Shown: positions 9,724-36,889 of the stretch, in pieces | Layout of the letters: every line of letters begins with the position of its first letter | How positions within the stretch are numbered: the stretch's first letter is position 1 | Source: Pseudalgibacter alginicilyticus | Lineage (GTDB): Bacteria; Bacteroidota; Bacteroidia; Flavobacteriales; Flavobacteriaceae | Reading direction: 5' to 3' | Length of the DNA: 64,000 nucleotides | NCBI RefSeq assembly: GCF_001310225.1 | Contig: NZ_CP012898.1 | Span: forward strand, 1,860,001 to 1,924,000 | Made by a program: the position numbers and the translations under genes | Notes under the pieces: model-generated | Seen by the model: only the letters and a program-made list of their open reading frames with translations | Database searches by the model: none | What the model was told of the DNA's origin: nothing

Positions 9724-9766
9724 CAAAAATAACCCCTAAACTTAATTCCAAAACTGACAAATGTCA
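9724..9766 (-). promoter_or_regulatory. pflB promoter with Crp/Fnr-type dyad
   Basis: On the minus strand, TGACAAATGTCA (9755-9766, perfect 5+2+5 dyad) is followed after 23 nt by the -7 element TATTTTTG (9724-9731), then a leader of about 25 nt to the pflB ATG. The dyad centre would fall near -41, a class II activator position. The same dyad and spacing recur at three other promoters in the window. Confidence 0.75.
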
Positions 9767-10100
9767 TTGAACACATATTATTTAATGCCCTTGAATTTAC
9801 GAAAACGTTTGAATTACAATTATTAAAAAAATAACAAATAAATTGGTTATAAATCTAATAACTTAAACTGTGTTTTTTATTTAAAAGGAGACACTAATAT
9901 AATTTGCATCAAAAAAAAAGATAAAAAAACTACTATTTCAAACTTTAATTAGTTTGATAAAACTAAGAATTAACAGACAACTATTTTAAACAAAAAAAAG
10001 TTGTTTTTGAATGAAATGAGATGAACTATTTATTTTATAAAAAACTCTTGGCAATAAAAATGTGAACAACAATCAATTCAATCTATAAGCTGATAAATGA
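9767..10100. other. Intergenic region upstream of pflB, no gene seen
   Basis: About 330 nt of very AT-rich sequence between the pflB operator and the terminator of the alginate-lyase-like gene. No convincing reading frame. A small inverted repeat TCAAACT-N6-AGTTTGA is at 9938-9957. Nothing else could be supported. Confidence 0.6.
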
Positions 10101-10137
10101 GCTAAAATACAAAGGCTCTTTTTTAAAGAGCCCTTGT
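10101..10137 (-). terminator. Terminator of the PL6 alginate-lyase-like gene
   Basis: On the minus strand, a 13-bp stem with one G-T wobble (core GGCTCTTT / AAAGAGCC, arms at 10109-10121 and 10125-10137) is followed by ATTTTAG. It lies 11 nt past the stop codon. Confidence 0.8.
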
Positions 10138-10147
10138 AAATATATGA

Positions 10148-11965
10148 TTATTGTTTAACAAATATTTTGGAGACATTTTTAATTTTTAATATATATGTCC
10201 CACTGGTTAAATCACTCACATAAATTGTTTCTTTTTGAGAACTATAGATTTCATTGCTTATAATTCTCCCAAGCATATCAATAATTTGAACCTGACCTAA
10301 AACCTGATTATCCAATGAAATATTTAAATAATCACCTCTTATTGGATTAGGATATATACGAAGTATACTTTCAGTTTTTATACTATTATCAACATTTAAA
10401 GTTGGACTACCTCCAAAACCAACAGTTACTCCCACATCTGATTGCCTGTAGGGACGTTTAGCACCTCCACCATTAAATTCTTCTGCCCCAGCATCAATAG
10501 AAGCTCCCATGGGACGAGTACCTCCTAAAACATCACTGTTTAAAAATAGATAATTCCCCTCACCATAATCAATAGCTGCACTTCCATAAACTACATTATA
10601 AATATCATTCCCCGAGGTTAGTAGAGCTGGTTCAATTGGTGGTACTTCTACATTTAAATTACCACCACCATCAAAACTTCCAAAAGAATCATACGCATAT
10701 GAGGTTTGCTTTATATTATTTTCATATTTAGATACAGAACCTATGAGTTGGGTGGTAACTTGTATAGCTCTATTGGAACTTGCACTGGGAATTGTAACAT
10801 CATCTACAAAAAATAAGTTATTACCTATTATCACATCTTGAGGCGGCTGATTTTGTGAACTATTAAATGTCGCACCAACTCTTATACCTAGATCACAATT
10901 CACAAAGGTGTTATTTACTATAGTTGTATTTTTAACCTGATAATATTGATTCAATGCGCTATTTAATATCCCATTATGAATATTAATCCCTGCAAGACCA
11001 TTTGTTGACGAATTATTTGGGTACTTAGCTCTGGTGCCTTCAATATAATTATTATAAATTTTATGATTTTCACCCATTACTCGAATACCCCCACTAAAAG
11101 ATTGGCCATTTGCTAAAAAAAAATTATTATATACTTCACAATTATTCCCATGTCTTAATGTCAATGCTCCTGAATAATTTTCAAAAGTATTATTATAGTA
11201 TTTATTATTTCCACTTTTGTTAGAAATCACTTCAATTTCACCTACAAAATCATAAAAATAATTATCATAAACCTCCGAAGACGAATCTGACAATGATGTA
11301 GAACTGTTACCTAATCTTATAGCATCTTGATCATTATCTTCATTTACCACTGAGGTTCCTTGAGGCGTTCTATTTGCAAAATAATTATGATGTATTTTAT
11401 GAAAATTCTCAACAGCAGGAGAGTCTCTATTATCATTTATTATACTTCCTACACCATGTTTACCAACAAATGAGCTATAACTTATTTCATTGTTTGCTCC
11501 TCTTAATAAAATCCACTTAAAAACACTTGTTTGTTGAGAGGAGCCTTGATTAAAAGCGTCTATCTTAATATTTGAAACTTTACAGTTATTACAAACATTG
11601 GAACTATTAACTCTAAAATCTATTAAAGGCGTATCTGTAGACACTGAATTAGGAGGGTTTTCAAAAACAACGCCTTCAAAATGAATATAATCACCTCCAA
11701 GCTTCACATTAGTATTTCCAGAAAAAACAACCATACCAGGGGATTCTGCCTTAATAACTATTGGATTTGCTGCAGTACCGTCTTTACTAATACTAATTGT
11801 TGTATTAGCCCAACTACCATTATTTGACAAAATGATAGTTGTACCAGGAACTGCAGCAGATATGGCACTATTAAGTGAACTTTGATTTGTTACGGTTTGT
11901 CCATAAATTAATTTAATAGATACTAAAGCCATACAGCTTAAATAGTTAAGTAATTTCCTTTTCAT
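10148..11965 (-). CDS. Secreted PL6-type alginate lyase / chondroitinase-B family protein with T9SS sorting domain
   Basis: 605 residues from the ATG at 11965, which gives a clean signal peptide (MKRKLLNYLSCMALVSIKLIYGQ). The frame extends to a GTG at 12043, but that start would bury the signal and cross the operators. Residues about 25-500 form a parallel beta-helix of the PL6 kind, with repeated asparagine-rich turns (KIHHNYF, RHGNNCEVYNNFF). The family cleaves alginate, or less often dermatan/chondroitin sulfate, by beta-elimination. The final 70 residues (RIYPNPIRGDYLNI through GTYILKIKN) are a type A Por sorting domain, implying export by type IX secretion and surface attachment or release. 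It stands alone rather than in a SusCD locus. A tandem operator overlaps its promoter. Confidence 0.85.
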   Translation of the reverse strand: MKRKLLNYLSCMALVSIKLIYGQTVTNQSSLNSAISAAVPGTTIILSNNGSWANTTISISKDGTAANPIVIKAESPGMVVFSGNTNVKLGGDYIHFEGVVFENPPNSVSTDTPLIDFRVNSSNVCNNCKVSNIKIDAFNQGSSQQTSVFKWILLRGANNEISYSSFVGKHGVGSIINDNRDSPAVENFHKIHHNYFANRTPQGTSVVNEDNDQDAIRLGNSSTSLSDSSSEVYDNYFYDFVGEIEVISNKSGNNKYYNNTFENYSGALTLRHGNNCEVYNNFFLANGQSFSGGIRVMGENHKIYNNYIEGTRAKYPNNSSTNGLAGINIHNGILNSALNQYYQVKNTTIVNNTFVNCDLGIRVGATFNSSQNQPPQDVIIGNNLFFVDDVTIPSASSNRAIQVTTQLIGSVSKYENNIKQTSYAYDSFGSFDGGGNLNVEVPPIEPALLTSGNDIYNVVYGSAAIDYGEGNYLFLNSDVLGGTRPMGASIDAGAEEFNGGGAKRPYRQSDVGVTVGFGGSPTLNVDNSIKTESILRIYPNPIRGDYLNISLDNQVLGQVQIIDMLGRIISNEIYSSQKETIYVSDLTSGTYILKIKNVSKIFVKQ

Positions 11966-11988
11966 TTCTATAATTAAATAATTAACAA

Positions 11989-12018
11989 TTGGTTTACCAA
12001 TTTGGTTTACCAAATATA
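11989..12018 (-). promoter_or_regulatory. Tandem operator overlapping the PL6 gene promoter
   Basis: TTGGTTTACCAA (TTGGT-TT-ACCAA dyad) occurs twice, at 11989-12000 and 12002-12013, with a 13-bp period. On the minus strand the -7 element TATATTTG (12011-12018) overlaps the second copy, so a bound repressor would block the promoter and the transcription start. The dyad size suits a LacI or GntR family repressor, which is not encoded next door. Confidence 0.7.
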
Positions 12019-12311
12019 GCAAAATATTAATAACTTTTAACACTGATAATCAGTTATTTATTTTCACAAATTGCATCTTAAAATTAAAAGCTTAGAAAAA
12101 AAGCTTAAAATGATTGTAATAATAAAAGCCTTGGTCCATTTTGAAAATCAAAATTACTGAGTAACTTTTATTGAAAATTCCGAAAAGAATAATATCAAAA
12201 CAACTAAACTTGTACTTACTATTAATTATGCAACAAATAGCTTATTTTATTATCTATTTGAAAATCCCATTTATTTTCCTAATTTGCATAAAACTTAACT
12301 AGACCAAAATA
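12019..12311. other. Divergent intergenic region, no gene seen
   Basis: About 290 nt of AT-rich sequence between the PL6 promoter and the acyl-CoA ligase start. No reading frame or clear exact TAnnTTTG element for the ligase; a near match TAATTTG lies at about 12280-12286. Confidence 0.5.
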
Positions 12312-14087
12312 ATGATTGAGGTTAACAGAATTTTTGACTTTCCGCTGTATCAACTTAAAAAATTTAATCTTGAAAAAGCGCTCACTACCAAATATAATGA
12401 TGAATGGATTAGTATTTCAACTAAGGAATATATTAATCAGTCTAATAAAATAAGCAGAGGTCTTTTAAGATTAGGTGTAAAACCAAATGATAAAATTGCA
12501 GTAATATCTTCTACAAATAGAACTGAGTGGCATATATTAGATGTAGGTATACTACAAACTGGCGCACAAAATGTCCCCATTTATCCTACAATAAGTGCAG
12601 AAGATTATGAATATATTTTAAATCATTCAGAATCTGTTTATTGCTTTGTATCAGATATTGAAGTGTTAGAAAAAATAAATTCTATAAAAAATAACACCAA
12701 GCTTAAAAATATTTACGTTTTAGACAATATAGGGAACCAAGATAACTGGAAAGATGTTTTAGCCTTAGGAGAAGATGACAGTAACCAAAATGAAGTAGAA
12801 GAGAGAAAGAACGCTGTAAAACCTACTGATTTAGCAACTTTAATTTATACATCTGGAACAACAGGAAAGCCTAAAGGGGTTATGTTATCACATAAAAACA
12901 TAGTTTCTAATGTTTTAGATAGTGAAAAGCGAGTGCCATTTGATCATGGAAAATCTAAAGCTTTAAGTTTTCTGCCTATTTGCCATGTTTTTGAACGCAT
13001 GGTGGTATACCTCTATCAATATTGTGGTGTAGAAATTTATTTTGCTGAATCTATCGAAAAAATGAGCGATAATCTTAAAGAGGTACATCCAACCGTTATG
13101 ACTGCTGTACCTCGTTTATTTGAGAAGGTGTATGATAAAATTATAGCCAAAGGAAGCGATTTAAAAGGTATAAAAAAAATGCTTTTCTTTTGGGCTGTAG
13201 ATTTAGGGTTACGATTTAAACCCTACAAAGAAAACGGATGGTGGTACGAAACACAATTAAAACTTGCGAGAAAACTAATTTTCAGTAAATGGAAGGAAGG
13301 GTTAGGTGGAAACTTAGAATTAATGGTGTCAGGAAGTGCTGCTTTACAACCTAGGCTTAATCGTGTTTTTGCAGCCGCTAAACTTCCTATAATGGAAGGA
13401 TATGGTCTTACAGAAACCTCTCCTGTTATTTCAGTTAATGATATGAGAAATGGAGGCTTTAGAGTTGGCACTGTAGGCCGAATAATTGATAATGTTGAAG
13501 TTAAAATTGCTGATGACGGCGAAATTTTAGTGAAAGGCCCCAATGTTATGATGGGGTATTATAAAGACCCTGAAAAAACTGCTGAAGTTATGACAGGTGA
13601 ATATTTCCATACTGGTGATATTGGAGAAATAGATTCTGATGGTTTCTTAAAAATAACCGATCGAAAAAAAGAAATGTTTAAAACTTCTGGTGGAAAATAT
13701 GTAGCACCCACATTACTTGAGAATAAATTTAAACAATCACGATTTATTGAGCAAATAATGGTAATTGGTGAAGGAGAAAAAATGCCTGCTGCCTTAATAC
13801 AACTTAATTTTGAATTTGTTGAAGAATGGGCCAAACGACATAGAATCAAGGTGAATTCAAATAAAGATCTTATTTCTAATTCACAACTGTTAGCTAGAAT
13901 ACAAGACGAAATTGATACAGCCAACAAAAAATTTGGAAAATGGGAACAAATTAAAAAGTTTGAACTAACACCAGATGTTTGGTCAATTGAAGCAGGGCAC
14001 CTGACTCCTACTATGAAAATGAAACGAAAGGTTATTAAAGAAAAGTATTTTAACCTCATTGAAAAAATTTACCGAGGTGATAACTAA
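12312..14087 (+). CDS. Long-chain acyl-CoA synthetase (AMP-dependent ligase)
   Basis: 591 residues. Activates fatty acids to acyl-CoA with ATP, releasing AMP and pyrophosphate. The ATP-binding signature YTSGTTGKPKGVMLSH is near residue 178; the adenylation motif YGLTETSP is near 363; HTGDIGEID and DRKKEMFKTSGGKYVAP give the hinge and C-terminal lysine region. The length and KTSGGKYVAP form are typical of the bacterial FAA1-like long-chain group (FadD15 type). It lies just upstream of a MarR-controlled beta-oxidation operon and presumably supplies its substrate, but a terminator separates the two units. Confidence 0.93.
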   Translation: MIEVNRIFDFPLYQLKKFNLEKALTTKYNDEWISISTKEYINQSNKISRGLLRLGVKPNDKIAVISSTNRTEWHILDVGILQTGAQNVPIYPTISAEDYEYILNHSESVYCFVSDIEVLEKINSIKNNTKLKNIYVLDNIGNQDNWKDVLALGEDDSNQNEVEERKNAVKPTDLATLIYTSGTTGKPKGVMLSHKNIVSNVLDSEKRVPFDHGKSKALSFLPICHVFERMVVYLYQYCGVEIYFAESIEKMSDNLKEVHPTVMTAVPRLFEKVYDKIIAKGSDLKGIKKMLFFWAVDLGLRFKPYKENGWWYETQLKLARKLIFSKWKEGLGGNLELMVSGSAALQPRLNRVFAAAKLPIMEGYGLTETSPVISVNDMRNGGFRVGTVGRIIDNVEVKIADDGEILVKGPNVMMGYYKDPEKTAEVMTGEYFHTGDIGEIDSDGFLKITDRKKEMFKTSGGKYVAPTLLENKFKQSRFIEQIMVIGEGEKMPAALIQLNFEFVEEWAKRHRIKVNSNKDLISNSQLLARIQDEIDTANKKFGKWEQIKKFELTPDVWSIEAGHLTPTMKMKRKVIKEKYFNLIEKIYRGDN

Positions 14088-14092
14088 ATAAT

Positions 14093-14120
14093 TTAAAACT
14101 CATTTTTAAATGAGTTTTAA
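14093..14120 (+). terminator. Terminator after the acyl-CoA synthetase gene
   Basis: TTAAAACTCATTT and AAATGAGTTTTAA form a 13-bp perfect stem with a 2-nt loop, starting 5 nt after the stop. The A/T-flanked stem would work in either direction, though the T tract is short. Confidence 0.7.
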
Positions 14121-14151
14121 CCCTACTGTTCCACAATTAAAAAACACTTTG

Positions 14152-14184
14152 TTATGCATGCATAATATATTTTTCATATATTTG
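14152..14184 (+). promoter_or_regulatory. Promoter and MarR-type operator of the beta-oxidation operon
   Basis: TTATGCATGCATAA (14152-14165) is a 14-bp perfect palindrome. It is followed 11 nt later by the -7 element TATATTTG (14177-14184), 21 nt before the marR ATG. A TTTG at 14148-14151 may be the -33 element. The palindrome lies between the two elements, where a MarR dimer would repress its own operon. Confidence 0.7.
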
Positions 14185-14205
14185 GATTGAACTCCAACCA
14201 AAAGC

Positions 14206-14652
14206 ATGAAAGAAAAAACAATAGACTATGTTTTAAGAACCACTTGGTTAGCGGTAAATAAGATGTATAATGAAGAAGCTTCAAAATTTGAAACCACCAT
14301 GGCTACTGGATTTTGTTTGCTGAGTATAGATCCAGAAAAAGGAACAGCATCAACAGCCTTGGGACCAAAAATGGGCATGGAAGCAACTAGTTTATCACGT
14401 ATTTTAAAAACCATGGAAAAAAAAGGGTTAATTGAACGAAAACCAAATCCAGATGATGGACGAGGAGTCATCATTCACTTAACTGATTTTGGAAAACAAA
14501 AAAGAGAATTATCAAGGGAAAAAGTACTGATATTCAATAATGCTATAAGAAACAGTATTTCTGAAGAAAAGTTAAAACATTTTTATGAAGTTGCACAGCA
14601 TATAAATGACATGGTAAGTAACAAAAAAATTTACAATCAATCCGATAGTTAA
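14206..14652 (+). CDS. MarR family transcriptional regulator of the fatty-acid operon
   Basis: 148 residues with the MarR winged helix: a recognition region GMEATSLSRILKTMEKKGLI followed by the wing ERKPNPDDGRGVIIHLTD. The DxRG motif of the wing is present as DDGRG. It is the first gene of the operon with the 3-hydroxyacyl-CoA dehydrogenase/hydratase 8 nt downstream, the thiolase and the acyl-CoA dehydrogenase. A palindrome directly overlaps its promoter. Inference: it represses the operon and is released by an acyl-CoA or fatty acid. Confidence 0.92.
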   Translation: MKEKTIDYVLRTTWLAVNKMYNEEASKFETTMATGFCLLSIDPEKGTASTALGPKMGMEATSLSRILKTMEKKGLIERKPNPDDGRGVIIHLTDFGKQKRELSREKVLIFNNAIRNSISEEKLKHFYEVAQHINDMVSNKKIYNQSDS

Positions 14653-14660
14653 TATACAAA

Positions 14661-17069
14661 ATGAGCAAACGAACAATTAAAAAAATAGCTATTATTGGCT
14701 CTGGAATTATGGGAAGTGGTATTGCATGCCATTTTGCCAATATAGGTGTAGATGTATTATTATTAGATATTATTCCACGAGAATTAAATGATGCCGAAAA
14801 AGCAAAAAATTTAACTCTTGAAGACAAATCTGTTCGAAATAGAATTGTAAACAACTCCTTAACAACCGCATTAAAATCAAGCCCATCCCCTATTTACCAT
14901 CAAAAATTTGCAAGTAGAATTACAACGGGAAATACAGAAGATGACATTGCTAAAGTAGCAAACGTAGACTGGATTATGGAAGTTGTTATTGAACGCCTTG
15001 ACATAAAAAAACAAGTATTCGAAAAATTAGAAAAATATAGAACCCCTGGAACCTTAATAACTTCAAATACCTCTGGTATTCCTATCAAGTTTATGAGTGA
15101 AGGACGAAGTGACGATTTTCAAAAGCATTTTTGTGGGACCCACTTTTTCAATCCAGCACGCTATTTAAAATTGTTTGAAATCATTCCTGGACCTCATACA
15201 TCTACCGAAGTTCTTAATTTTTTAAATAGTTATGGTGAACAATTCCTTGGAAAAACATCGGTTGTTGCTAAAGACACACCCGCATTTATAGGAAATAGAA
15301 TTGGAATTTTTAGCATTATGAGCTTGTTCCATACCGTAAAAGAAATGGATTTGACTATTGAAGAAGTTGATAAATTAACAGGTCCCGTTATTGGCAGACC
15401 CAAATCGGCAACTTTCAGAACCGTTGATGTAGTTGGATTAGATACTCTTGTACATGTAGCTAATGGTATTGCAGAAAATTGTAAAAACGATGAACAACTA
15501 TCTCTTTTTAAATTGCCTAATTTCATCAATACCATGGTTGAAAACAAATGGCTTGGAAGTAAAACAGGACAAGGTTTTTATAAAAAAACAAAAAAGGATG
15601 ATGGTACTTCTGAAATTTTATCATTAGACTTGAATACCTTAGAATATCGTTCAGTAAAAAAAGCAAATTTTGCCACTTTAGAACTAACAAAAACCATTGA
15701 CAATGTAGCTGACCGATTTAAAGTATTAGTATCTGGAACAGATAAAGCAGGTGAATTTTATAGAAAAAGTTTTGCATCCTTATTTGCTTATGTTACCAAC
15801 AGGATTCCTGAAATTACAGACGACCTTTATAAAATTGATGATGCTATGAAAGCTGGTTTTGGATGGGAGCACGGTCCATTCCAAATATGGGATGCTATTG
15901 GCGTAGAAAAAGGTATTGACATCATGAAATTGGAAGGTTTAGCACCTGCTTCTTGGGTACAAGACATGTTAGCTTCTGGCAACAAATCTTTTTATACCGT
16001 TAAAGAAGGTGCTACATTTGCTTATGATATCCAAAAGAAAAAACAAGAAAAAGTGCCTGGTCAGGATGCCTTTATTATCTTAAATAACATTAGAAAACCT
16101 AATGAAGTTTGGAAAAACTCGGGTGTGGTTATTGAAGACTTAGGCGATGGTATTTTAAACTGCGAATTCCAATCTAAAATGAATACCATTGGTGGTGATG
16201 TGCTAGCAGGATTAAATAAAGCTGTTGATTTAGCGGAAAAAAACTTTCAAGGCCTAATTATTGGAAATCAAGGGGCCAACTTTTCAGTTGGTGCCAATAT
16301 TGGTATGATTTTTATGATGGCTGTAGAGCAAGAATATGATGAATTAAACGCTGCCATCAAATACTTCCAAGACACGATGATGCGTATGCGCTACTCATCA
16401 ATACCCACTATTTCTGCTCCTCATGGTATGTCATTAGGAGGTGCTTGCGAACTCTCCATGCACGCAGACAAAGTAGTTGCTGCTGCTGAAACTTATATTG
16501 GATTGGTGGAGTTTGGTGTAGGTGTTATTCCTGGAGGTGCTGGCTCAAAAGAAATGGCTTTAAGAGCCTCTGATATGTTTAGAAAAGATGATGTAGAATT
16601 AAACACATTACGCGAATATTTCCTATCCATTGCTATGGCTAAAGTATCTACTTCTGCCTATGAAGCCTTTGATTTAGGAATCCTTCAAAAAGGCAAGGAT
16701 ATTATAGTTGTTAATAAAGATAGGCAAATTGCTACCGCTAAAGCTCATGCCAAATTAATTGCAGAAGCGGGTTATACACAACCTCTAAAACGTACAGATG
16801 TAAAAGTATTAGGAAAACAGGCTTTAGGGATGTTTTTAGTAGGCACTGATGCTATGCAAAATAGCAAGTATATTAGTAAGCATGACCAAAAAATTGCAGA
16901 CAAACTTGCTTACGTCATGGCTGGTGGCGACTTATCAGAACCTACTTTAGTGACAGAGCAGTATTTATTGGATTTGGAACGGGAAGCTTTTTTAAGTTTA
17001 TGCACTGAACGGAAAACATTAGAACGTATTCAACATATGCTAAAAAAAGGAAAACCATTACGAAATTAG
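14661..17069 (+). CDS. 3-hydroxyacyl-CoA dehydrogenase / enoyl-CoA hydratase fusion
   Basis: 802 residues. The Rossmann NAD-binding motif IIGSGIMGSGIACHFA is at residues 10-25, so the dehydrogenase half comes first. The crotonase half follows from roughly residue 500: GANFSVGANIG gives the first oxyanion loop, GMSLGGACELSMHAD the second, and ETYIGLVEFGVGVIPGGAG the catalytic Glu region. This order is the reverse of E. coli FadB/FadJ, where the hydratase is N-terminal, but is standard for this bacterial subfamily. It performs the two middle steps of beta-oxidation in the cytoplasm. It sits 8 nt after marR and upstream of the thiolase. Confidence 0.93.
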   Translation: MSKRTIKKIAIIGSGIMGSGIACHFANIGVDVLLLDIIPRELNDAEKAKNLTLEDKSVRNRIVNNSLTTALKSSPSPIYHQKFASRITTGNTEDDIAKVANVDWIMEVVIERLDIKKQVFEKLEKYRTPGTLITSNTSGIPIKFMSEGRSDDFQKHFCGTHFFNPARYLKLFEIIPGPHTSTEVLNFLNSYGEQFLGKTSVVAKDTPAFIGNRIGIFSIMSLFHTVKEMDLTIEEVDKLTGPVIGRPKSATFRTVDVVGLDTLVHVANGIAENCKNDEQLSLFKLPNFINTMVENKWLGSKTGQGFYKKTKKDDGTSEILSLDLNTLEYRSVKKANFATLELTKTIDNVADRFKVLVSGTDKAGEFYRKSFASLFAYVTNRIPEITDDLYKIDDAMKAGFGWEHGPFQIWDAIGVEKGIDIMKLEGLAPASWVQDMLASGNKSFYTVKEGATFAYDIQKKKQEKVPGQDAFIILNNIRKPNEVWKNSGVVIEDLGDGILNCEFQSKMNTIGGDVLAGLNKAVDLAEKNFQGLIIGNQGANFSVGANIGMIFMMAVEQEYDELNAAIKYFQDTMMRMRYSSIPTISAPHGMSLGGACELSMHADKVVAAAETYIGLVEFGVGVIPGGAGSKEMALRASDMFRKDDVELNTLREYFLSIAMAKVSTSAYEAFDLGILQKGKDIIVVNKDRQIATAKAHAKLIAEAGYTQPLKRTDVKVLGKQALGMFLVGTDAMQNSKYISKHDQKIADKLAYVMAGGDLSEPTLVTEQYLLDLEREAFLSLCTERKTLERIQHMLKKGKPLRN

Positions 17070-17146
17070 ACAACTTGGATGGTAGACTTTTAAATTTTAG
17101 AAATCTGAATAATCCAGAAAATCTAATTATCTAAAATAACAAAAAA

Positions 17147-18337: not shown

Positions 18338-18423
18338 GAAATACTTCCTATCACCTCAAACGTAAAGAAGTATTACAAAACAGAAAAAATAATTAAAGTA
18401 TAACTAAAAAACACCCTGTAACA

Positions 18424-18454
18424 GTTCTCTTCTTTGGAGAGTTAAAAGGGCTAA
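18424..18454 (+). repeat. Possible dispersed intergenic repeat upstream of the acyl-CoA dehydrogenase
   Basis: The sequence TCTCTTCTTTGGAGAG followed by TTAAAAGGGCT resembles a second element at 42001-42020 that also lies directly upstream of a start codon. The CTCT/AGAG ends can form a short hairpin. Repeat status is inferred from two similar copies in the window. Confidence 0.35.
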
Positions 18455-18457
18455 ACT

Positions 18458-20251: not shown

Positions 20252-20286
20252 TAACTGATTTTAAAACAAAGGTAATTATTAACCAT

Positions 20287-20320: not shown

Positions 20321-20330
20321 ATTAATTTTA

Positions 20331-23960: not shown

Positions 23961-23961
23961 T

Positions 23962-27339: not shown

Positions 27340-27556
27340 ATATAAAAAAATATTTTTTGAGCATTTTTTATTAGTTTTTCATAAAAACCAATAATAAAAC
27401 ACGATTATTTGCTTAATATACGTAAAAAGAGTACAAAAACCTACATTAAAGAGTTTTGGAAATTATTTTTAAAAAACCAAAAAAATAAAGTAACTTAAAA
27501 TATAGATTTCCAAATTAATCTACTCCAAACCAATTAATATGAAAATTAAAATATTT

Positions 27557-29017: not shown

Positions 29018-29122
29018 ATTTGACTCTTGCAAACCCTCACAAAAGAGAGTATTATTGTGGTTATAAAATTTATTAATTTTTCGTATCTACCCCCCTACTT
29101 TAAGACATCCCAAATAAGAATT

Positions 29123-30250
29123 CTACCCTTTAATTCTTTTTTTTCTGTTAGTTTCATAATCTTCAAAAATCATTTCACCTAAACCTTTAAGACCTGTATA
29201 AAAGGCTTTCCCTTGATTAGCAAAAGTAAACTCTCTAACAAATTGCATTAAGTAAGGGTCTTGAGCAATCATAAAAGTGGTTATAGGAATATGCAATTTT
29301 CTTGCTTGTTGTGCCATCATATAGCATTTATTTACTATATGTTTATCCAAGCCGTTACTATTTTTATAATATTCGCCATCGGGTAAACGCAAACAGCTTG
29401 GTTTTCCATCAGTAATCATAAAAATTTGTTTATTAGTATTCCGTTTTCTACGCAGTAAATCCATTGCCAACTGTAAGCCTGACACTGTATTAGTGTGATA
29501 AGGGCCTACTTTTAAATATGGTAAGTCTTTAATCTCAATTTGCCAGGCATCGTTTCCAAAAACTAATATATCTAAAGTATCTTTTGGGTAACGAGTTGTA
29601 ATGAGTTCTGCTAATGCCATGGCTACTTTTTTAGCAGGTGTAATTCTATCTTCACCATATAGAATCATGCTATGGCTGATATCTATCATTAAAACGGTAC
29701 TCATTTGCGATTTATGAAGTGTTTCCTCAACCACCAAATCATCTTCAGATAGAGTAAAATTTCCAATACCATGACTTATTTGAGCATTCTTCAAGCTCTC
29801 CGTCATAGACACTTTATCTAGAGCATCACCAAATTGGTAGTTTCTAAAATCGCCTGTGTGTTCATCACCAACGCCAGGGCTTTTACTTTTATGATTTCCT
29901 TGTCCGCTTCGTTTTATCTTTCCAAAAATATGATCTAACGCTTGTTGACGAATGGCTCGCTCTGTTTTAGCAGTAATAGCTAAAGAACCATTCCCTTCTG
30001 GATCCTTTTCTTCTCGTAAATACCCTTTCTTTTTTAGGTCTTCAATAAAATCATCGATAGTATACTCTGCTGTGGTCAATTTATATTCTACATCTAACTG
30101 TCTTAACCAATCAATAGCCTCATCAAAATCACCAGAAGTATGTGTAATAAGTTCTTTAAAAATTTCAAAAAGTTTTTCAAAAGAAGATTGAAAAGGTGCT
30201 TCATATTTTTTAAAAACAAATCCTTTTCTTGAAGTAAAATCATGTATCAT
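29123..30250 (-). CDS. VWA domain protein, partner of the MoxR ATPase
   Basis: 375 residues, no signal peptide. Residues 1-110 are helical and charged. The von Willebrand A domain starts near residue 183, with the metal-binding MIDAS motif D190-x-S192-x-S194 in MIDISHSM and a later TDGKPS. A basic, glycine-rich linker (KIKRSGQGNHKSKSPG) separates the halves. MoxR-VWA pairs act together in maturation of protein complexes. It lies between the Crp/Fnr gene and the MoxR gene on the same strand. A long inverted repeat ends 4 nt before its start codon, suggesting control at the RNA or promoter level. Confidence 0.87.
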   Translation of the reverse strand: MIHDFTSRKGFVFKKYEAPFQSSFEKLFEIFKELITHTSGDFDEAIDWLRQLDVEYKLTTAEYTIDDFIEDLKKKGYLREEKDPEGNGSLAITAKTERAIRQQALDHIFGKIKRSGQGNHKSKSPGVGDEHTGDFRNYQFGDALDKVSMTESLKNAQISHGIGNFTLSEDDLVVEETLHKSQMSTVLMIDISHSMILYGEDRITPAKKVAMALAELITTRYPKDTLDILVFGNDAWQIEIKDLPYLKVGPYHTNTVSGLQLAMDLLRRKRNTNKQIFMITDGKPSCLRLPDGEYYKNSNGLDKHIVNKCYMMAQQARKLHIPITTFMIAQDPYLMQFVREFTFANQGKAFYTGLKGLGEMIFEDYETNRKKRIKG

Positions 30251-30253
30251 AGC

Positions 30254-30280
30254 TGTATAAAAATACTATATTTTTATACA
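30254..30280 (-). promoter_or_regulatory. Inverted repeat at the VWA gene start
   Basis: TGTATAAAAATA (30254-30265) and TATTTTTATACA (30269-30280) are perfect 12-bp arms around a 3-nt centre. They end 4 nt from the VWA start codon at 30250. As RNA this forms a hairpin next to the start; as DNA it could be an operator. A second small dyad, ATCATG-CAA-CATGAT, is at 30311-30325. Confidence 0.6.
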
Positions 30281-30341
30281 TAAACCATAGGGGAACTATT
30301 GGATTTATCTATCATGCAACATGATTTTTTTAATAAAGAAT

Positions 30342-31019
30342 TTATTCTACTCGTTTTAACCCTTCTAAATCCTTTATTTTTATCTGTTTACCTATTGTAG
30401 CTATTAAGCCTTCTTTTTTAAATTGTGAAAGTACTCTAATGGCAGATTCAGTAGCAGTGCCTACTATATTAGCCAAATCTTCTCTAGATAGTAAAACACT
30501 TAGAGTACCATCCGGATTTTCACCAAAACTATCGTGAATATATATTAGGGTTTCTGCTAATCTTTGTCTAACAGACTTTTGTGCCATATTTACAATAATA
30601 TCATCTGCTTCTCTTAAATCATTTGCCATACTTTTAAGTACATCAAACGTAAACTCAGGATTTTTGTGTAAGTATTTTAATATTTCATTTTTTGGAATAA
30701 AACAAACTTCCATATCGTTTAAAGCAGTTGCTTGCAAATTTGATCGCTCTTCCGTAACCACTGAACGTTGCCCCAATAAATCTCCCTTTACAACCATCTT
30801 AACAATTTGATCTTTACCATTTGAACTGAGTTTGGTAAGCTTACAAATACCATCTCTAACACAATAAACACCACCCAATATTTCACCCTCTTCAAAAATA
30901 ACCGCTCCCTTTTTAATAACTTTTGATATTTTACAATTAGAAATACGTACCAATTCTTCTTTACTCAATGTTTTAAGAGAGTTAAATTGTTTAATGATAC
31001 ATTGCTCGCACTTACTCAT
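30342..31019 (-). CDS. Crp/Fnr family transcriptional regulator
   Basis: 225 residues: N-terminal cNMP-binding-type beta-roll (residues ~20-130), long dimer helix, and a C-terminal Crp helix-turn-helix. The recognition helix has E191 and R195 in TESAIRVL, matching the Glu and Arg that Crp and Fnr use to read a TGA half-site. Cysteines C4, C7 and C29 cluster at the N-terminus, with C53, C59 and C106 further on. That is similar to, but not the same as, the Fnr [4Fe-4S] spacing, so cluster binding is possible but unproven. It lies 64 nt downstream of the universal stress gene on the same strand, so the dyad promoter there would also control it. Candidate reader of the TGACA dyads in this window. 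Confidence 0.9.
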   Translation of the reverse strand: MSKCEQCIIKQFNSLKTLSKEELVRISNCKISKVIKKGAVIFEEGEILGGVYCVRDGICKLTKLSSNGKDQIVKMVVKGDLLGQRSVVTEERSNLQATALNDMEVCFIPKNEILKYLHKNPEFTFDVLKSMANDLREADDIIVNMAQKSVRQRLAETLIYIHDSFGENPDGTLSVLLSREDLANIVGTATESAIRVLSQFKKEGLIATIGKQIKIKDLEGLKRVE

Positions 31020-31083
31020 AATGAATATTTATAATTTTAAAATATTTAAAATACTACAACTAACTATATAATTTGATATTAAT

Positions 31084-31923
31084 TTAGTGTAGTATTAAAA
31101 AAGGAACTTTGGTATAATAGCTTATCTTTGGCATTGTTGGATGGAATAAAATTTTTTGAAAATAGTTAAGATTTTTAGCCAACATAGTTATTAAATTAAT
31201 CTTATTCATTTCAACAAAATTCTCAACACCCTCTTCAATATTTTTATTGGCTAAAAAATGAAAACTATGCTCATGTTCACTAAGATAGTCAACTAAGAAC
31301 TCTTTATTAGCTTTTTGGTCACTATTCAATTCACCTCCTTTTTTATCGATATATAATACTCTTGTTGCAGAATTATTTCTTTTTATTATATCAGAAAAAG
31401 GTTTTAGTGTTTCGGTTAGGTAGAAAAAATGAAAATCAGTTGGAAAAGCAATTTCACTTAGCTTGGTATATTTAGCGTTTTCAGGAATTACCAACGTATT
31501 ACACATAACTTTTGTTATGACGTTTCCTGTATTTGTTCCAATATTATTTTTTTTATACCCAGATGCCCCTTTAGTTCCCATGGCTATAAAATCAATCTTC
31601 TTATCAACAACTTGTCTTCTAATTGAATCTATCATATACCCTTGATCCGTTATTGTAAAAAACCGCTGGTTACCATTTAGTGGTAAAGATTTATTTATAC
31701 GCTGCAATGTTTCTTGCAATCGTTTTTTTGGTGACTTTACCAATACATCCAGTCCTAAATCTCCTTCTATATCATTAGTAGCTTCAGGTTTTACTGAAGT
31801 GTTAGGGGTATTTATATGCAATAAATAAAAGTTACATGGCGAATTACTAAAAAAATCGCATGCGTATTCAATTGCATTCCATGCATTTTGCGAAAAGTCG
31901 GTGGGAATTAATACGTTCATCAT
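31084..31923 (-). CDS. Universal stress protein, tandem UspA domains
   Basis: 279 residues. The first UspA domain begins VLIPTDFSQNAWNAIEYA and contains GTKGASGYKKNNIGTNTGNVI, the G-x2-G-x9-G(S/T) nucleotide-binding loop. A second, more degenerate domain follows from about residue 150 (EIAFPTDFHF). It is cytoplasmic, with a role in stress survival inferred from the family. Its promoter carries a Crp/Fnr-type dyad with the same spacing as the oxidase and pflB promoters. It is probably the first gene of a unit with the Crp/Fnr regulator, giving autoregulation. Confidence 0.9.
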   Translation of the reverse strand: MMNVLIPTDFSQNAWNAIEYACDFFSNSPCNFYLLHINTPNTSVKPEATNDIEGDLGLDVLVKSPKKRLQETLQRINKSLPLNGNQRFFTITDQGYMIDSIRRQVVDKKIDFIAMGTKGASGYKKNNIGTNTGNVITKVMCNTLVIPENAKYTKLSEIAFPTDFHFFYLTETLKPFSDIIKRNNSATRVLYIDKKGGELNSDQKANKEFLVDYLSEHEHSFHFLANKNIEEGVENFVEMNKINLITMLAKNLNYFQKILFHPTMPKISYYTKVPFLILH

Positions 31924-31940
31924 GCTTTGCTTGTTGGGTA

Positions 31941-31983
31941 CAAAGGTAAAAGCATGAGAATTACTGAAATATGACCAAAATCA
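31941..31983 (-). promoter_or_regulatory. Promoter of the universal stress/Crp-Fnr unit with Crp/Fnr-type dyad
   Basis: On the minus strand TGATTTTGGTCA (31972-31983), a TGA-N6-TCA dyad, is followed after 23 nt by the -7 element TACCTTTG (31941-31948). The leader to the ATG at 31923 is about 15 nt. Dyad quality is weaker than at pflB or ccoS, but the spacing is identical. Confidence 0.65.
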
Positions 31984-31997
31984 TACTTAGCCGTTAA

Positions 31998-33056
31998 TCA
32001 ATGAATACTTTTTAGTTGATTTAAATCTAATATTTTAATATTTCGCCCTTCAATTTCAATAATACCCATGTCTTTAAAACCAGATAATGCTCTGATTAAA
32101 CTTTCAATGGCTATGCCTGCTACACTTGCTAAATCGTTTCTAGAAATACGAATAGCTTCTTCTGGTTTTTTGTTGAGTTTTTCGGCAAACATTAAAATGG
32201 TGGTTGCTGCTCGTTTTTTTACTGAGCTATACGCCATTTGCAATAATTGATCTTTTACACCTGTAAGATCTTCTGATAAAAGCTGAATAAGTTCTAAAGT
32301 AATATTATGATTGCTGGTGAGTATATTTTTAAGTTCACTTTTAGATAAGCTAATTAATGTAGTTTCTTGAATAGCTGTTGCCGTTTCTTGATACGTAGTA
32401 TTTTGTGTAAATGAGGTATATCCAAATAAATCATCTTCTTTATATACAGCCGTAGTCAGGCTTTTTCCTTGCTCGTCTAATTTATGGCACTTTACTAACC
32501 CTTTTGATATCAAGTATATATTATTCGAGTTTTTGCCTTCTTCGTAAACTAAATCACCTTGAGAATAGCTTATTTCTTCTCCATTATCTTCAAAGAAATT
32601 TTTAAGATCATTAAGTGTTCTTATTTCATCATTATCAGTTGATACGGGCTTCTCCGCTTCTACAATTGTATTTTTATCTTTTAAAATAGATGCCTTAGCA
32701 AGTCTACTTTCTATTGCACTTATCAATTCATCTTCTTCAAAAGGTTTTGTAATATAGTCATCTGCACCTAAATCCATACCTTTCCTAACATCTTTACGCT
32801 CCGTTTTTGCAGACAAAAATATAAAAGGAATATGCTTTGTATTACTATTCTCAGCAAGAGCTTCCAAAACGCCATAACCATCTAATAAAGGCATCATAAT
32901 ATCACAAACTACAATATCTGGCAAGTTGTTTTTTGCCATTTCAATACCCACTTTTCCGTTAGGAGCGGTTATAACATCATAATGAGACAATTCTAATAAT
33001 TCTGCTGTATTTTCTCTTAGAATAACATCATCTTCAATTAATAGTACTTTATTCAT
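31998..33056 (-). CDS. CheY-Crp hybrid response regulator
   Basis: 352 residues: a receiver domain (1-125) with D9, D10, phospho-acceptor D52 in VVCDIMMP, and the Lys in TKPFEEDEL; then a cNMP-binding-type roll (~150-265) and a Crp helix-turn-helix. The recognition helix has E318 and R322 in IESLIRAL, the same E-S-x-I-R pattern as the stand-alone Crp/Fnr protein, so both may read the same DNA. Its start overlaps the stop of the histidine kinase gene by 8 nt, so the two are co-translated. The pair lies back to back with the cbb3 oxidase genes. I infer redox or oxygen control of that cluster. Confidence 0.92.
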   Translation of the reverse strand: MNKVLLIEDDVILRENTAELLELSHYDVITAPNGKVGIEMAKNNLPDIVVCDIMMPLLDGYGVLEALAENSNTKHIPFIFLSAKTERKDVRKGMDLGADDYITKPFEEDELISAIESRLAKASILKDKNTIVEAEKPVSTDNDEIRTLNDLKNFFEDNGEEISYSQGDLVYEEGKNSNNIYLISKGLVKCHKLDEQGKSLTTAVYKEDDLFGYTSFTQNTTYQETATAIQETTLISLSKSELKNILTSNHNITLELIQLLSEDLTGVKDQLLQMAYSSVKKRAATTILMFAEKLNKKPEEAIRISRNDLASVAGIAIESLIRALSGFKDMGIIEIEGRNIKILDLNQLKSIH

Positions 33057-34296
33057 TATTAACTTTATTTTTTAATGTAATTGTAAATGTACTTCCTTTA
33101 TTTTCCTCGCTTACAAAATCTATAGTTCCTCCCAAATTTTCCAAATGACTTTTTACAATATTCAATCCAATCCCGGTTCCTTGAGTAAGTAAAGCGTTTT
33201 CTGCTCTAAAATAACGGTTAAATATTCTTTTTTGATCTTTAACAGGAATACCTATTCCGTTATCTGAAATTTTAAAAACAGTATGCTCCTCATCTTGTGT
33301 TATCAAAATATCTATTAAGGAATTTTCAGAAGAATATTTAATAGCATTATGAACCAAATTGGATAACGCTAACTCAACTGTTTTTTCATCTTGGTATAAT
33401 GATATACCATCAATGTTTTCTGGATAATTAATCTTCTGACCTTGCTTTAAAAGCATATTAGAATTATACACCACTTCATTAACTACTTTACTCAACTTAA
33501 AGGTGCTTAAATTATAATTAATTTTTCCTGTTTCTAATTTCTCAATTGACAAAAAGTCATTTAATATATTATTTAAGTAGTGTACCTTATCTGAAATTGT
33601 TTTTATATGCCTATCCCGTTTCTCTTGTTGCTCAGTTAATTTATACTTTCCCAACAACATAGCCGAAGTTAAAATTCCACTTAAAGGTGTTTTAAATTCA
33701 TGAGATACAAGCGACAAAAATTTTGTTTTTAACTCATTCAGTTCTTTTTCTTTTTTTAGTGCGTTACTAATTTTATTTTGAGCTTCAATTCGTTTTTTTA
33801 TTTCTGCATCGCGTTCTACATTTACAGTTTTTAGTTCTTTTACTGTATTACTTAGCTCATTGGTACGGGCTTCTACTTTTTTTTCTAACTGAGAATTTAA
33901 CTCATGTAACTCTAGTTCTTGTTTTTTTCGTATTGAAATATCAATAACTAATGCCATTACAAAAGAACCTTCATCAATATTTAATGGATTTAAACCAGCC
34001 TCAACAGGAAATGTACTACCATCTTTTCTAGCTCCATACAAATCACGACCTTGCCCCATTTGCCTGCTTGATTTGTCTTTCATAAAACCTGAAACATGCT
34101 CCCCATGATTAGCTTTATACTCTTGAGGAATTAATATTTCTAAAGGCTGATTTAGCAATTCATCTTTATTGTAACCAAACATTTTTTCTGCTGAAAGATT
34201 TGTAGAAACAATTTTTTGTTGTGCATTAACTACTATAACACCTTCTGAAACAGCTTCAAAAAGCACATTAAATATTTCTTTATCACTTCCTATCAT
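33049..34296 (-). CDS. PAS-domain sensor histidine kinase, FixL-like layout
   Basis: 415 residues, no membrane segment. A PAS domain (~10-125) is followed by a coiled coil (~125-190), a HisKA domain with H199 in SLVSHEFKTPLSG, and an HATPase domain (SDNGIGIPVKDQ, GTGIGLNIVKSHL). In the PAS domain H64 and R84 are 20 residues apart and align with the heme ligand His200 and distal Arg220 of Bradyrhizobium FixL in the same sequence context. Many related PAS domains keep these residues without proven heme, so oxygen sensing is only a hypothesis. Partner is the CheY-Crp regulator, with which it overlaps. Soluble and cytoplasmic. Confidence 0.9.
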   Translation of the reverse strand: MIGSDKEIFNVLFEAVSEGVIVVNAQQKIVSTNLSAEKMFGYNKDELLNQPLEILIPQEYKANHGEHVSGFMKDKSSRQMGQGRDLYGARKDGSTFPVEAGLNPLNIDEGSFVMALVIDISIRKKQELELHELNSQLEKKVEARTNELSNTVKELKTVNVERDAEIKKRIEAQNKISNALKKEKELNELKTKFLSLVSHEFKTPLSGILTSAMLLGKYKLTEQQEKRDRHIKTISDKVHYLNNILNDFLSIEKLETGKINYNLSTFKLSKVVNEVVYNSNMLLKQGQKINYPENIDGISLYQDEKTVELALSNLVHNAIKYSSENSLIDILITQDEEHTVFKISDNGIGIPVKDQKRIFNRYFRAENALLTQGTGIGLNIVKSHLENLGGTIDFVSEENKGSTFTITLKNKVNNE

Positions 34297-34350
34297 TATA
34301 TTTGCTTACATATTTTTAGCATTAAGACTTACATCTGAGCTAAGTTTATT

Positions 34351-34358
34351 CAAAAATA
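34351..34358 (-). promoter_or_regulatory. Candidate promoter of the histidine kinase operon
   Basis: TATTTTTG on the minus strand matches TAnnTTTG, 54 nt before the kinase ATG. It faces away from the ccoI promoter and shares its dyad at a 26-nt rather than 23-nt gap, so shared control is uncertain. Confidence 0.35.
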
Positions 34359-34384
34359 AATGTTTTGTAAAAATATATAAAACA

Positions 34385-34427
34385 TGACAAATATCATATT
34401 TAAAGCCTATATCATTTCTAACTTTTG
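34385..34427 (+). promoter_or_regulatory. ccoI promoter with Crp/Fnr-type dyad
   Basis: TGACAAATATCA (34385-34396, one mismatch from a perfect dyad) is followed after 23 nt by AACTTTTG (34420-34427, one mismatch from TAnnTTTG) and a leader of about 25 nt to ccoI. The spacing equals that at pflB, ccoS and the stress gene. Confidence 0.65.
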
Positions 34428-34453
34428 CACAAGGTATAAAAGAGCAAATAAAA

Positions 34454-36829
34454 ATGAGCAATAACACATGTTTTCATTGTGGTTTAGATGCTTCATCGTC
34501 TCGTATTGTGTATGATGAAAAATCATTTTGTTGTAACGGTTGTAAAACCGTTTACGAAATATTTTCTGCAAATAATTTAACTTGCTATTACGATTTACAA
34601 GAAGCTCCAGGCGCTACCCCAAAAGAAGTTGAAGGCAAATACAATTTTTTGGATAATGCCAAAATAGTAGAGCAATTATTGGAGTTTAATGATGATAAAA
34701 CGCAAATTGTTACATTATATATTCCACACATCCACTGCAGTTCTTGTATTTGGATTCTTGAAAACTTAAACAAATTACATCCATCAGTAAGTGCATCTAT
34801 TGTTAATTTTGGAAAAAAAACTGTACGTATTACTTACAACAGTGAAAATTTATCTTTAAAAGAACTCGTTAAATTATTAAGCCGTATAGGCTACGAACCT
34901 TTTATAAGTTTAGATGATTATAGTGTTGGCAAAAAACACACAGACAGGTCGCTTATATATAAATTAGGTATTGCGGGATTTGCTTTTGGAAACATCATGT
35001 TTTTGTCGTTTCCAGAATATTTTCAATCTAACGAATTCTGGCTTGAACAGTATAAATACTTGTTTAGATGGCTCATGTTTGTTTTTTCCCTTCCTGTTAT
35101 TTTTTATTCGGCTCAAGATTATTTTATTTCAGCCTTTAAAGGATTGCGTTCTAAAATTTTAAACATTGATGTACCAATTGCTTTAGGTGCCGCTGTTTTA
35201 TTTTTAAGAAGTACAGTTGAAATTGTTTTTGATATTGGCTCTGGTTTTTTTGATAGCTTGTCTGGTCTGATTTTCTTTTTATTACTTGGAAAATTTTTTC
35301 AACAGAAAACATACAATTTCTTATCGTTTGAACGGGATTATAAATCTTATTTCCCTATTGGGATTACTAAAATCACATCTAATTCATTGGAAGAATCCAT
35401 TCAGGTTTATGATATTAAAAAAGGGGATAGACTTTTAATTAGAAACGAAGAACTCATTCCTGTTGATTGCATTTTAATAAAAGGAAATGCTCGAATAGAT
35501 TATAGTTTTGTTACAGGAGAATCAGAGGCTATTTCAAAAAAATCTGGGGATAAATTATTTGCTGGAGGCAAACAGTTGGAGGGCAGTATTGAGGTGGATG
35601 TAATAAAAACAGTAGAACAAAGTTACCTAACCCAACTGTGGAGCAACGATGTATTCAATAAAAACAAAGAAGATAGTTTTACAACGCTAACGAATAAAAT
35701 TAGTAAAAAGTTTACCGTTACCATACTCTGCATTGCCTTTATAGCCACTGCATATTGGCTTTTTATGGATGCCACAAAAGCACTAAATGTTTTTACAGCG
35801 GTACTTATTATTGCTTGCCCTTGTGCCATTGCTTTAGCGGCTCCGTTTACCCTTGGTAATCTATTAAGGATATTTGGCAAACTAAAATTTTATGCAAAAA
35901 ATGCTTCAGTTATTGAACAATTAGCAGCTATTGATACCATCATTTTTGATAAAACTGGAACAATAACCTCCAACACAGAAACAACTATAAAATATGAAGG
36001 CTCTCAGTTCTCTCATGAAGAAGAAGCTTTTCTAAAAAGTACGCTTAGAAACTCCAATCATCCATTGAGTCGTTCATTATACTCACTTTTAAATGAACAT
36101 CAAATTGTAACTTTAGATAGATATGAAGAACATATTGGCAAAGGAATCCAAGCACAACGTTCGCTAGATTCTATCAAAATTGGTTCAGCAACTTATGTTG
36201 GTCATGATGCAGAATCAGCTACTTTAAACACAAGTATTCATGTAAGCACCAACAATAAGTACAAAGGCAAATTCACCTTTTATAATAAGTATAGAAAAGG
36301 ACTATCTAAACTCTTTAATAAGCTAAAAAAAGAGTATGATTTAGTAATTTTATCAGGTGATAATGCAGGTGAAAAGGAAAATTTAACTAAATTGTTACCT
36401 GCCAAAACCAAACTATTTTTCAATCAAAAGCCAGAAGATAAATTGGAATATATTAAACATCACCAAAACTCGGGTGCCAAAGTTTTAATGATTGGCGATG
36501 GATTGAATGATGCTGGAGCTCTTGCTCAAAGCAATATAGGTATTGCTATTTCAGAAAACGTTAATGTGTTTTCTCCTGCATGTGATGCTATTTTAGATGC
36601 CTCCAAATTCAATAAGTTATACCATTTTATAAAAGCGTCTAAATCAGCTATAAAAATTATTAAGTGGAGTTTTGCTTTATCTTTTGTATATAATTGCATT
36701 GGGCTTTATTTTGCAGTCACAGGGCAGTTAGCCCCCGTAGTTGCTGCTATTTTAATGCCTTTAAGTTCTATCAGCATAGTGGTATTTACCACTATTACGA
36801 CAAATATTTTAGGAAAGAGATTAGAATGA
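34454..36829 (+). CDS. ccoI: Copper-translocating P-type ATPase for cbb3 oxidase assembly
   Basis: 791 residues. N-terminal cysteine-rich motif CFHCG (6-10) and CCNGC (26-30) form a metal-binding domain typical of CcoI/FixI; an HMA domain follows with HCSSC at 94-98. Membrane helices flank the CPC ion-transport motif in IIACPCAIAL. The actuator has FVTGESE, the phosphorylation site is FDKTGTIT, and the hinge GDGLNDAGAL. It is an inner-membrane copper exporter that supplies copper to the oxidase CuB site. It directly precedes ccoS and the structural genes, but ccoS has its own dyad promoter. Confidence 0.95.
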   Translation: MSNNTCFHCGLDASSSRIVYDEKSFCCNGCKTVYEIFSANNLTCYYDLQEAPGATPKEVEGKYNFLDNAKIVEQLLEFNDDKTQIVTLYIPHIHCSSCIWILENLNKLHPSVSASIVNFGKKTVRITYNSENLSLKELVKLLSRIGYEPFISLDDYSVGKKHTDRSLIYKLGIAGFAFGNIMFLSFPEYFQSNEFWLEQYKYLFRWLMFVFSLPVIFYSAQDYFISAFKGLRSKILNIDVPIALGAAVLFLRSTVEIVFDIGSGFFDSLSGLIFFLLLGKFFQQKTYNFLSFERDYKSYFPIGITKITSNSLEESIQVYDIKKGDRLLIRNEELIPVDCILIKGNARIDYSFVTGESEAISKKSGDKLFAGGKQLEGSIEVDVIKTVEQSYLTQLWSNDVFNKNKEDSFTTLTNKISKKFTVTILCIAFIATAYWLFMDATKALNVFTAVLIIACPCAIALAAPFTLGNLLRIFGKLKFYAKNASVIEQLAAIDTIIFDKTGTITSNTETTIKYEGSQFSHEEEAFLKSTLRNSNHPLSRSLYSLLNEHQIVTLDRYEEHIGKGIQAQRSLDSIKIGSATYVGHDAESATLNTSIHVSTNNKYKGKFTFYNKYRKGLSKLFNKLKKEYDLVILSGDNAGEKENLTKLLPAKTKLFFNQKPEDKLEYIKHHQNSGAKVLMIGDGLNDAGALAQSNIGIAISENVNVFSPACDAILDASKFNKLYHFIKASKSAIKIIKWSFALSFVYNCIGLYFAVTGQLAPVVAAILMPLSSISIVVFTTITTNILGKRLE

Positions 36830-36840
36830 TTACAAATAAG

Positions 36841-36889
36841 AAAACATGACATTTGTCATGTTTTGAAAACAACCATAAAATTACTTTTG
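36841..36889 (+). promoter_or_regulatory. cco operon promoter with long Crp/Fnr-type dyad
   Basis: Positions 36841-36864 are a perfect 24-bp inverted repeat (arms AAAACATGACA / TGTCATGTTTT, centre TT). Its core TGACATTTGTCA (36847-36858) lies 23 nt upstream of the -7 element TACTTTTG (36882-36889), with a 17-nt leader to ccoS. This is the strongest dyad of the four. Confidence 0.8.

Follow-up and report, generated by a model that had tools for sequence, protein, structure and literature searches.

We report a composite promoter element in a 64,000-nucleotide stretch of the Pseudalgibacter alginicilyticus genome (positions 1,860,001 to 1,924,000 of contig NZ_CP012898.1, the whole of which we call the window), which holds the cco gene cluster of a cbb3 oxidase. 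In its strict form the element is a 43-nt pattern, composed of a TGA-N6-TCA dyad, a 23-nt spacer and a TAnnTTTG box. We consider it quite probable that these elements serve as operators for class II activation in a low-oxygen regulon common to the Flavobacteriaceae, and that they are read by two Crp-fold proteins encoded at the cbb3 locus, an Fnr and a fusion of a receiver domain to a Crp/Fnr part. The fixed distance between dyad and box is a real observation, far above chance.

Composite sites and their spacing

Scanning the window at all spacings from 5 to 45, we found strict composites only at 23 (three) and at 26 (one). The three at 23 nt precede pflB, the universal stress protein gene usp, and ccoS (Table 1); 200 simulations under a second-order Markov null yielded 0.025 on average and never more than 1. 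The 8-mer located 23 nt downstream of the ccoI dyad, AACTTTTG, fits the box only when its first T is relaxed, and relaxing this letter gives four composites at spacing 23 in the window. An earlier note on this DNA had named four dyads, each 23 nt from a TAnnTTTG-like box. All four are present at the coordinates that it gave, and the spacing is strict at pflB, usp and ccoS, while at ccoI it holds only with the degenerate box. At ccoS, transcription is predicted to start near position 36894.

The ccoI dyad is located in the divergent gap between ccoI and a kinase gene. The spacing-26 composite (window positions 34351-34396) is this same dyad read toward the kinase gene, with a TAnnTTTG box, and a single dyad may serve both divergent genes.

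The dyad alone, allowing up to two mismatches, gives 24 matches in the window versus 31 expected, and TGACN4GTCA occurs 13 times genome-wide versus 22 times for the reversed pattern, with no enrichment in either case. The dyad alone was thus rejected as the signal, being not above chance in the window or the genome. It is the combination of dyad, spacing and box that carries the signal.

In the complete genome (3.99 Mb, one contig) we counted 17 composites, whereas the reversed pattern does not occur; 16 of the composites lie outside open reading frames (ORFs) of at least 80 aa, the other being inside a 304-aa ORF. The spacing was also compared, with 26 nt as control, in 56 genomes of the order, a non-random set comprising 36 fusion-bearing genomes (E ≤ 1e-60) and 20 listed without it, out of 246. 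These hold 572 composites at 23 nt versus 120 at 26 nt, corresponding to densities of 2.5 and 0.5 per Mb; 55 genomes have more composites at 23 than at 26, and one shows a tie.

Operator consensus and promoter geometry

The family consensus of the dyad is [A/C]TGAY-N4-RTCAT, with outer AA and TT, so that the TGACA-NN-TGTCA form first proposed for the site is too narrow. The core TGAYN4RTCA is found in 113 of 120 fetched composites, a fraction that is biased upward because sites with poor dyads were left out by eye; the unselected fractions at spacing 23 are 36/47, 40/53 and, in this genome, 15/17. Among the dyads at spacing 26, TGAYN4RTCA accounts for 18/120 and TGAYN4RTCAT for 4/120.

The E. 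coli FNR operator is TTGAT-N4-ATCAA. The suggestion that the flavobacterial site is different from it is supported: no T precedes TGA in any of the 109 sites at usp, ccoS and ccoI, and within the wider set of 120 composites a T is found there in about 7%. A dyad centred at -41.5 matches the class II activator position, as for CRP and FNR. This is the centre obtained when the box is placed at -12 to -5, the position given for TAnnTTTG in F. psychrophilum in the accessible passages of PMC9723704; the dyad then spans -47 to -36, in agreement with the earlier estimate of a centre near -41 and class II geometry.

Conservation at the locus in relatives

Named genomes were scanned for the receiver-Crp protein, resulting in 80 loci, all found via the fusion, the nearest of which are from Confluentibacter and Mariniflexile. 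The genes for the kinase, the fusion and usp stay grouped, and fnr is found beside them in 15 of the 80 loci. The strict composite at 23 nt is present in 74/77 usp promoters, with one further usp promoter having it at 24. In the ccoS promoters the dyad is present in 24/24 and the strict box at 23 in 22/24. The ccoI promoters all keep the dyad (15/15), and here the strict box is found at 23 in none of the 15 and at 22 in two, with 13 sites presenting nAnnTTTG at 23. The sites before pflB were found in 3 of the 16 genomes examined for sites, which is not a fraction of the pflB-bearing genomes. Conservation upstream of the cco and pfl genes, on which the initial proposal depended, is thus complete for the cco dyads and thinner for pfl.

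Upstream of the regulators themselves no composite at 23 was observed (fnr 0/15, kinase 0/67, fusion 0/80). Seven kinase promoters (L072, L078, L082, L083, L087, L096 and L097) have a dyad, mostly TATGATA..TCAG, at a spacing of 24 to TAnnTTTG, a possible case of autoregulation with shifted geometry.

Genes downstream of the composites

For 16 genomes 169 composites were listed, and the genes downstream of 127 of these were clustered; the other 42 were left out (19 mostly with poor dyads by eye, and 23 without a locus), and the recurrence counts are lower bounds. The gene most often found downstream of a composite is hemN, in at least 12 of the 16 genomes, followed by ccoS/ccoN in at least nine (eight in one cluster, plus ccoS in G192), the usp family in at least seven, a cytochrome c gene in at least five (followed by nosZ in 5/5), a 2-oxoacid oxidoreductase in at least four, and pflB, pta and pckA in at least three each. 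Many further composites precede genes that were encountered only once. These recurring genes (cbb3 oxidase, hemN, nosZ-linked cytochrome c, pflB, pta and others) point to a low-oxygen regulon, and the targets join fermentation, low-oxygen respiration and stress, as had been suggested from the window. Together with the conservation of the cco dyads, they support the flavobacterial oxygen/redox regulon that the earlier note put forward. In F. psychrophilum under oxygen limitation, the accessible passages of PMC9723704 describe the cbb3 oxidase and the enzymes of haem synthesis as strongly induced.

In the genome of P. alginicilyticus itself, the downstream genes include those for a di-haem cytochrome c peroxidase, a pta-like protein, pflB, usp, ccoS-ccoNO and hemN, a glyoxalase-fold protein (methylmalonyl-CoA epimerase-like) with a carboxylase, a CBS protein, a cytochrome c followed by nosZ, thioredoxin-like and outer-membrane efflux-like proteins, an ArsR-like regulator and some unknowns, some of these names resting on reading of the translations. 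The gene downstream of the composite at G000:C1:2255204 (L011) codes for a conserved protein, about 600 aa long in relatives, whose gene follows a composite in 4 of the 16 genomes; no Pfam match was found in the 260 residues scanned.

Fnr

The two Crp-fold regulators noticed earlier between the dyads are the Fnr and the receiver-Crp fusion (Table 1). In Fnr, a domain search identified a cyclic nucleotide monophosphate (cNMP)-type domain and a Crp helix-turn-helix, and the NCBIfam Fnr model PRK11161 is the best of 12 matches, at 97.4 bits, under its cut-off of 228. The cluster cysteines of E. coli FNR are C20, C23, C29 and C122. The CxxC of the window Fnr (C4, C7) and C106 align with the ligands of Aliivibrio FNR, whereas the third N-terminal cysteine is replaced (N13), so that the protein departs from the four-cysteine E. 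coli pattern, and C53 is invariant instead. The set C4/C7/C53/C106 is kept in 16/16 close Fnrs (the window protein and 15 relatives), in 8/8 Fnrs of fusion-less genomes and in 15/15 distant Fnrs outside one family (f4), in which all four cysteines are absent in 5/5 proteins with the recognition helix unchanged. Their joint loss suggests one joint function, which would most simply be the binding of a [4Fe-4S] cluster with C53 as the fourth ligand. An AlphaFold model was rejected as a guide to the placement of the cysteines (mean predicted local distance difference test score, pLDDT, of 59.5; predicted template-modelling score of 0.41; residues 1-28 below 50 in pLDDT).

The f4 proteins (L327-L331) keep the helix TATESAIRL without the four cysteines, and are FixK-like in that sense. 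Composites vary among the f4 genomes, with ten in G053, several of the TGATnnnnATCATAAAA kind, and none in G173.

With the FNR of E. coli and Aliivibrio the window protein shares the Crp fold, the N-terminal CxxC, the last-ligand cysteine, the putative low-oxygen targets and the predicted class II geometry. It differs in N13 and the invariant C53, and in the recognition helix (E[ST]xIR, versus ETISR in FNR), and its putative operator lacks the leading T of the E. coli TTGAT.

The receiver-Crp fusion and its PAS kinase

The fusion joins a receiver to a Crp/Fnr part with cNMP_binding and HTH_Crp_2 as output, and has no LuxR-type output as in FixJ. The receiver Asp52 is conserved in 81/81 fusions. 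The protein is without the Fnr cysteine set, and its putative cco targets are deduced from the fusion-only genomes G188 and G192. Among solved structures, the PAS domain of the kinase is best matched by those of FixL and DosP, both of which are haem PAS domains. In the haem PAS of BjFixL, H200 is the proximal His and R220 the distal Arg. His64 and Arg84 of the kinase align with the His and Arg columns of the FixL haem PAS (1d06), and among 78 aligned kinases 46 have both His and Arg, three His with another residue, and 29 other residues. A loose His-x19-Arg pattern is matched in the full ORF by 25 of these 29, with the second PAS being the one aligned in those inspected. The same loose pattern is found in the kinases of 67/80 loci, and three of the 13 misses are truncated ORFs.

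Among the 13 cNMP-domain proteins of this genome, the E[ST]xIR helix occurs only in Fnr, in the window fusion and in a second fusion, and is absent from the other ten. The second fusion (L238, G000:C1:152282-153331, outside the window) is 61% identical to the window fusion and has the helix TETLIR. L239 is CBS-like by reading of its translation.

As in the FixLJ-FixK system of rhizobia, a kinase with a FixL-like haem-type PAS adjoins cbb3 (fix) genes and the Crp/Fnr effector is without the cysteine set. In contrast, here the receiver and the Crp/Fnr effector form one protein, with no LuxR-type FixJ output, and the operator is not TTGANCNNGATCAANG, the site given in the accessible passages of PMC4999443. 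The same passages describe the alphaproteobacterial FnrN and FixK, Crp-type proteins of which some have and some lack the Fe-S cysteines, as sharing very similar sites (PMC4999443). The flavobacterial pair would be similar to these in having two Crp-type proteins on very similar sites, but belongs to another phylum, with a different promoter type and operator, and its second member is a response regulator in its own right.

Inner letters of the dyad

Counting the T of TGA as 0, we defined the inner A..T as an A at position 4 together with a T at position 7. The absence of the fusion from the Fnr-only genomes was checked at a relaxed E ≤ 1e-8 in 8 genomes; the fusion-only genomes are G192, G034, G188, G076 and G133, in addition to G240, which has a 37% relative without C4, C7 and C53. 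Both types keep composites at cco and hemN, the hemN site being present in the Fnr-only G041, G118, G122 and G160 and in the fusion-only G188, G192 and G240. The inner A..T is found in 22/36 sites of Fnr-only versus 5/40 of fusion-only genomes (Fisher p ~1e-5, phylogeny ignored), and in 17/22 ccoS versus 9/73 usp sites (p ~2e-8, phylogeny ignored). By this rule the pflB, ccoI and ccoS sites of the window are of Fnr type and the usp site is of fusion type. Both oxygen-sensor-type proteins of the window probably read the operator.

Table 1. Composite sites and genes of the locus, in window positions
Feature	Position	Strand	Description
pflB promoter	9724..9766	-	dyad TGACATTTGTCA 9755-9766, 23-nt spacer, box TATTTTTG 9724-9731; Fnr-type inner A..T
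usp promoter	31941..31983	-	dyad TGATTTTGGTCA 31972-31983, 23-nt spacer, box TACCTTTG 31941-31948; inner A..T absent
ccoI promoter	34385..34427	+	dyad TGACAAATATCA 34385-34396, 23-nt spacer, degenerate box AACTTTTG 34420-34427
ccoS promoter	36847..36889	+	dyad TGACATTTGTCA 36847-36858, 23-nt spacer, box TACTTTTG 36882-36889
formate/nitrite transporter	5831..6616	-	downstream of pflA
pflA	6651..7457	-	activating enzyme, downstream of pflB
pflB	7472..9697	-	formate C-acetyltransferase, target gene
fnr	30342..31019	-	225-aa Crp/Fnr regulator; C4, C7, C53, C106; recognition helix TESAIR
usp	31084..31923	-	universal stress protein, target gene
receiver-Crp/Fnr fusion	31998..33056	-	352 aa; Asp52 phospho-acceptor; recognition helix IESLIR; without Fnr cysteine set
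PAS histidine kinase	33049..34296	-	415 aa; His64 and Arg84 align with FixL
ccoI	34454..36829	+	heavy-metal P-type ATPase, named by gene context within the cco cluster; target gene
ccoS	36910..37098	+	target gene
ccoNO	37106..39298	+	fused cbb3 oxidase subunits I/II
ccoP, ccoG, ccoH	39498..42482	+	ccoP 39498-40394, ccoG 40411-41835, ccoH 42036-42482

Discussion

The observed sites, with their spacing and conservation, the architecture of the regulators and the co-occurrence of regulators and sites can be accommodated in the following mechanism. The operator [A/C]TGAY-N4-RTCAT, centred at -41.5, would be read together with the sigma-A TAnnTTTG box, and two Crp-fold activators from the cbb3 locus would bind near-identical versions of it. 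Fnr, as a putative Fe-S oxygen sensor, would prefer TGAYA-NN-TRTCAT and would take ccoS, ccoI, pflB, hemN and other genes. At low oxygen the FixL-like kinase, with its presumed haem PAS, would phosphorylate the fusion, which would tolerate other inner letters and take the neighbouring usp gene as well as some shared targets. In its full form, this amounts to a two-input oxygen switch, in which an FNR with one relocated cluster ligand (C4/C7/C53/C106) and a FixL-driven fusion (FixJ and FixK in one protein) share the -41.5 operator. Its two inner letters would distinguish between the two proteins, and from lineage to lineage one would stand in for the other. We advance this full form tentatively, as a proposal whose chances we put slightly below even.

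Several points weigh against the reading of the sites by Fnr and the fusion. The ccoI box lacks its first T, and the structure model of Fnr is poor. An ExxSR helix like that of E. coli FNR is present in three more of the cNMP proteins encoded here (L242, L243 and L246), any of which may be a further reader of the sites. Other genomes code for a 198-aa Crp-type protein with a VETVIR helix (L256, L257, L259, L265 and L281-L283), which is not among the 13 cNMP proteins here but prevents the Fnr-only and fusion-only genomes from being a clean test. The inner-letter contrast was first noticed and then tested on overlapping sites, five of the seven Fnr-only genomes are of one genus, so that phylogeny confounds it, and the usp sites away from fnr are mixed, with the inner A..T in 9/58 and neither letter in 1/58. 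Composite density is still 1.5 per Mb in 17 genomes with a distant Fnr, three of which have 0 or 1, and 1.0 per Mb (spacing 23 only) in 15 genomes with neither regulator, which are small (1.4-1.9 Mb). In the latter nothing matched Fnr at E ≤ 1e-20, and none of them belongs to the 36 fusion-bearing genomes; they were taken from 20 non-matching genomes shown, of 103, leaving out five of 0.3-0.6 Mb. In favour of the reading, the TGAYN4RTCAT form makes up 2/26 composites in these 15 genomes, 30/73 in the 17 with a distant Fnr and 11/17 in this genome. Thus the dyad form separates the groups well, and density alone weakly.

In G188 a composite is found just upstream of the gene for the 198-aa VETVIR protein, pointing away from it.

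One alternative is that only Fnr reads all the sites, the fusion having a different operator and lying nearby for another reason. The Fnr-type inner A..T of the ccoS, ccoI and pflB sites in the window would fit with this, as would the cco and hemN sites kept in fusion-less genomes, but the strict composite is kept in nearly all usp promoters beside the fusion, fusion-only genomes keep their usp, hemN and cco sites, and the E[ST]xIR helix is common to both proteins, so we regard this alternative as unlikely. We give still less credence to the possibility that, instead of the two proteins named, the sites are read by a Crp/MalR-like regulator responding to nutrients or carbon, or by some other Crp-fold protein of the genome. 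The presence of pckA and propionyl-CoA genes among the targets and the three ExxSR proteins are compatible with it, and the accessible passages of PMC8510549 place the Crp/Fnr homologue of one Flavobacteriales metagenome-assembled genome near the MalR-like, carbon-sensing group. However, the core targets serve high-affinity respiration (the oxidase), haem synthesis independent of oxygen, the reduction of N2O and the pyruvate formate-lyase reaction. In addition, the four cysteines of Fnr are co-conserved, the PAS of the kinase is FixL-like, and both proteins are encoded at the cco locus. Finally, the dyad could be an operator for repression, or a feature of the DNA that has nothing to do with a Crp/Fnr protein. 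Activation is deduced here, and the dyad by itself shows no enrichment, but the exact -41.5 position is maintained across genera and no conserved TTG was seen in the spacer among 120 composites, which leaves this the most improbable of the three. In our view, class II operators read by Fnr and the receiver-Crp fusion are the most fitting explanation.

In Proteobacteria, oxygen control is already well understood. In the open full-text literature (listings, abstracts and passages) we found no description of the flavobacterial operator or of a FixL-driven receiver-Crp protein, and its listing contained nothing relevant of the RegPrecise type on Bacteroidetes FNR. If the proposed reading is true, the low-oxygen regulons of flavobacteria, including N2O reduction, cbb3 respiration and fermentation, would be predictable from a 43-nt pattern in many genomes, and the two sensing routes would be separable by simple genetics.

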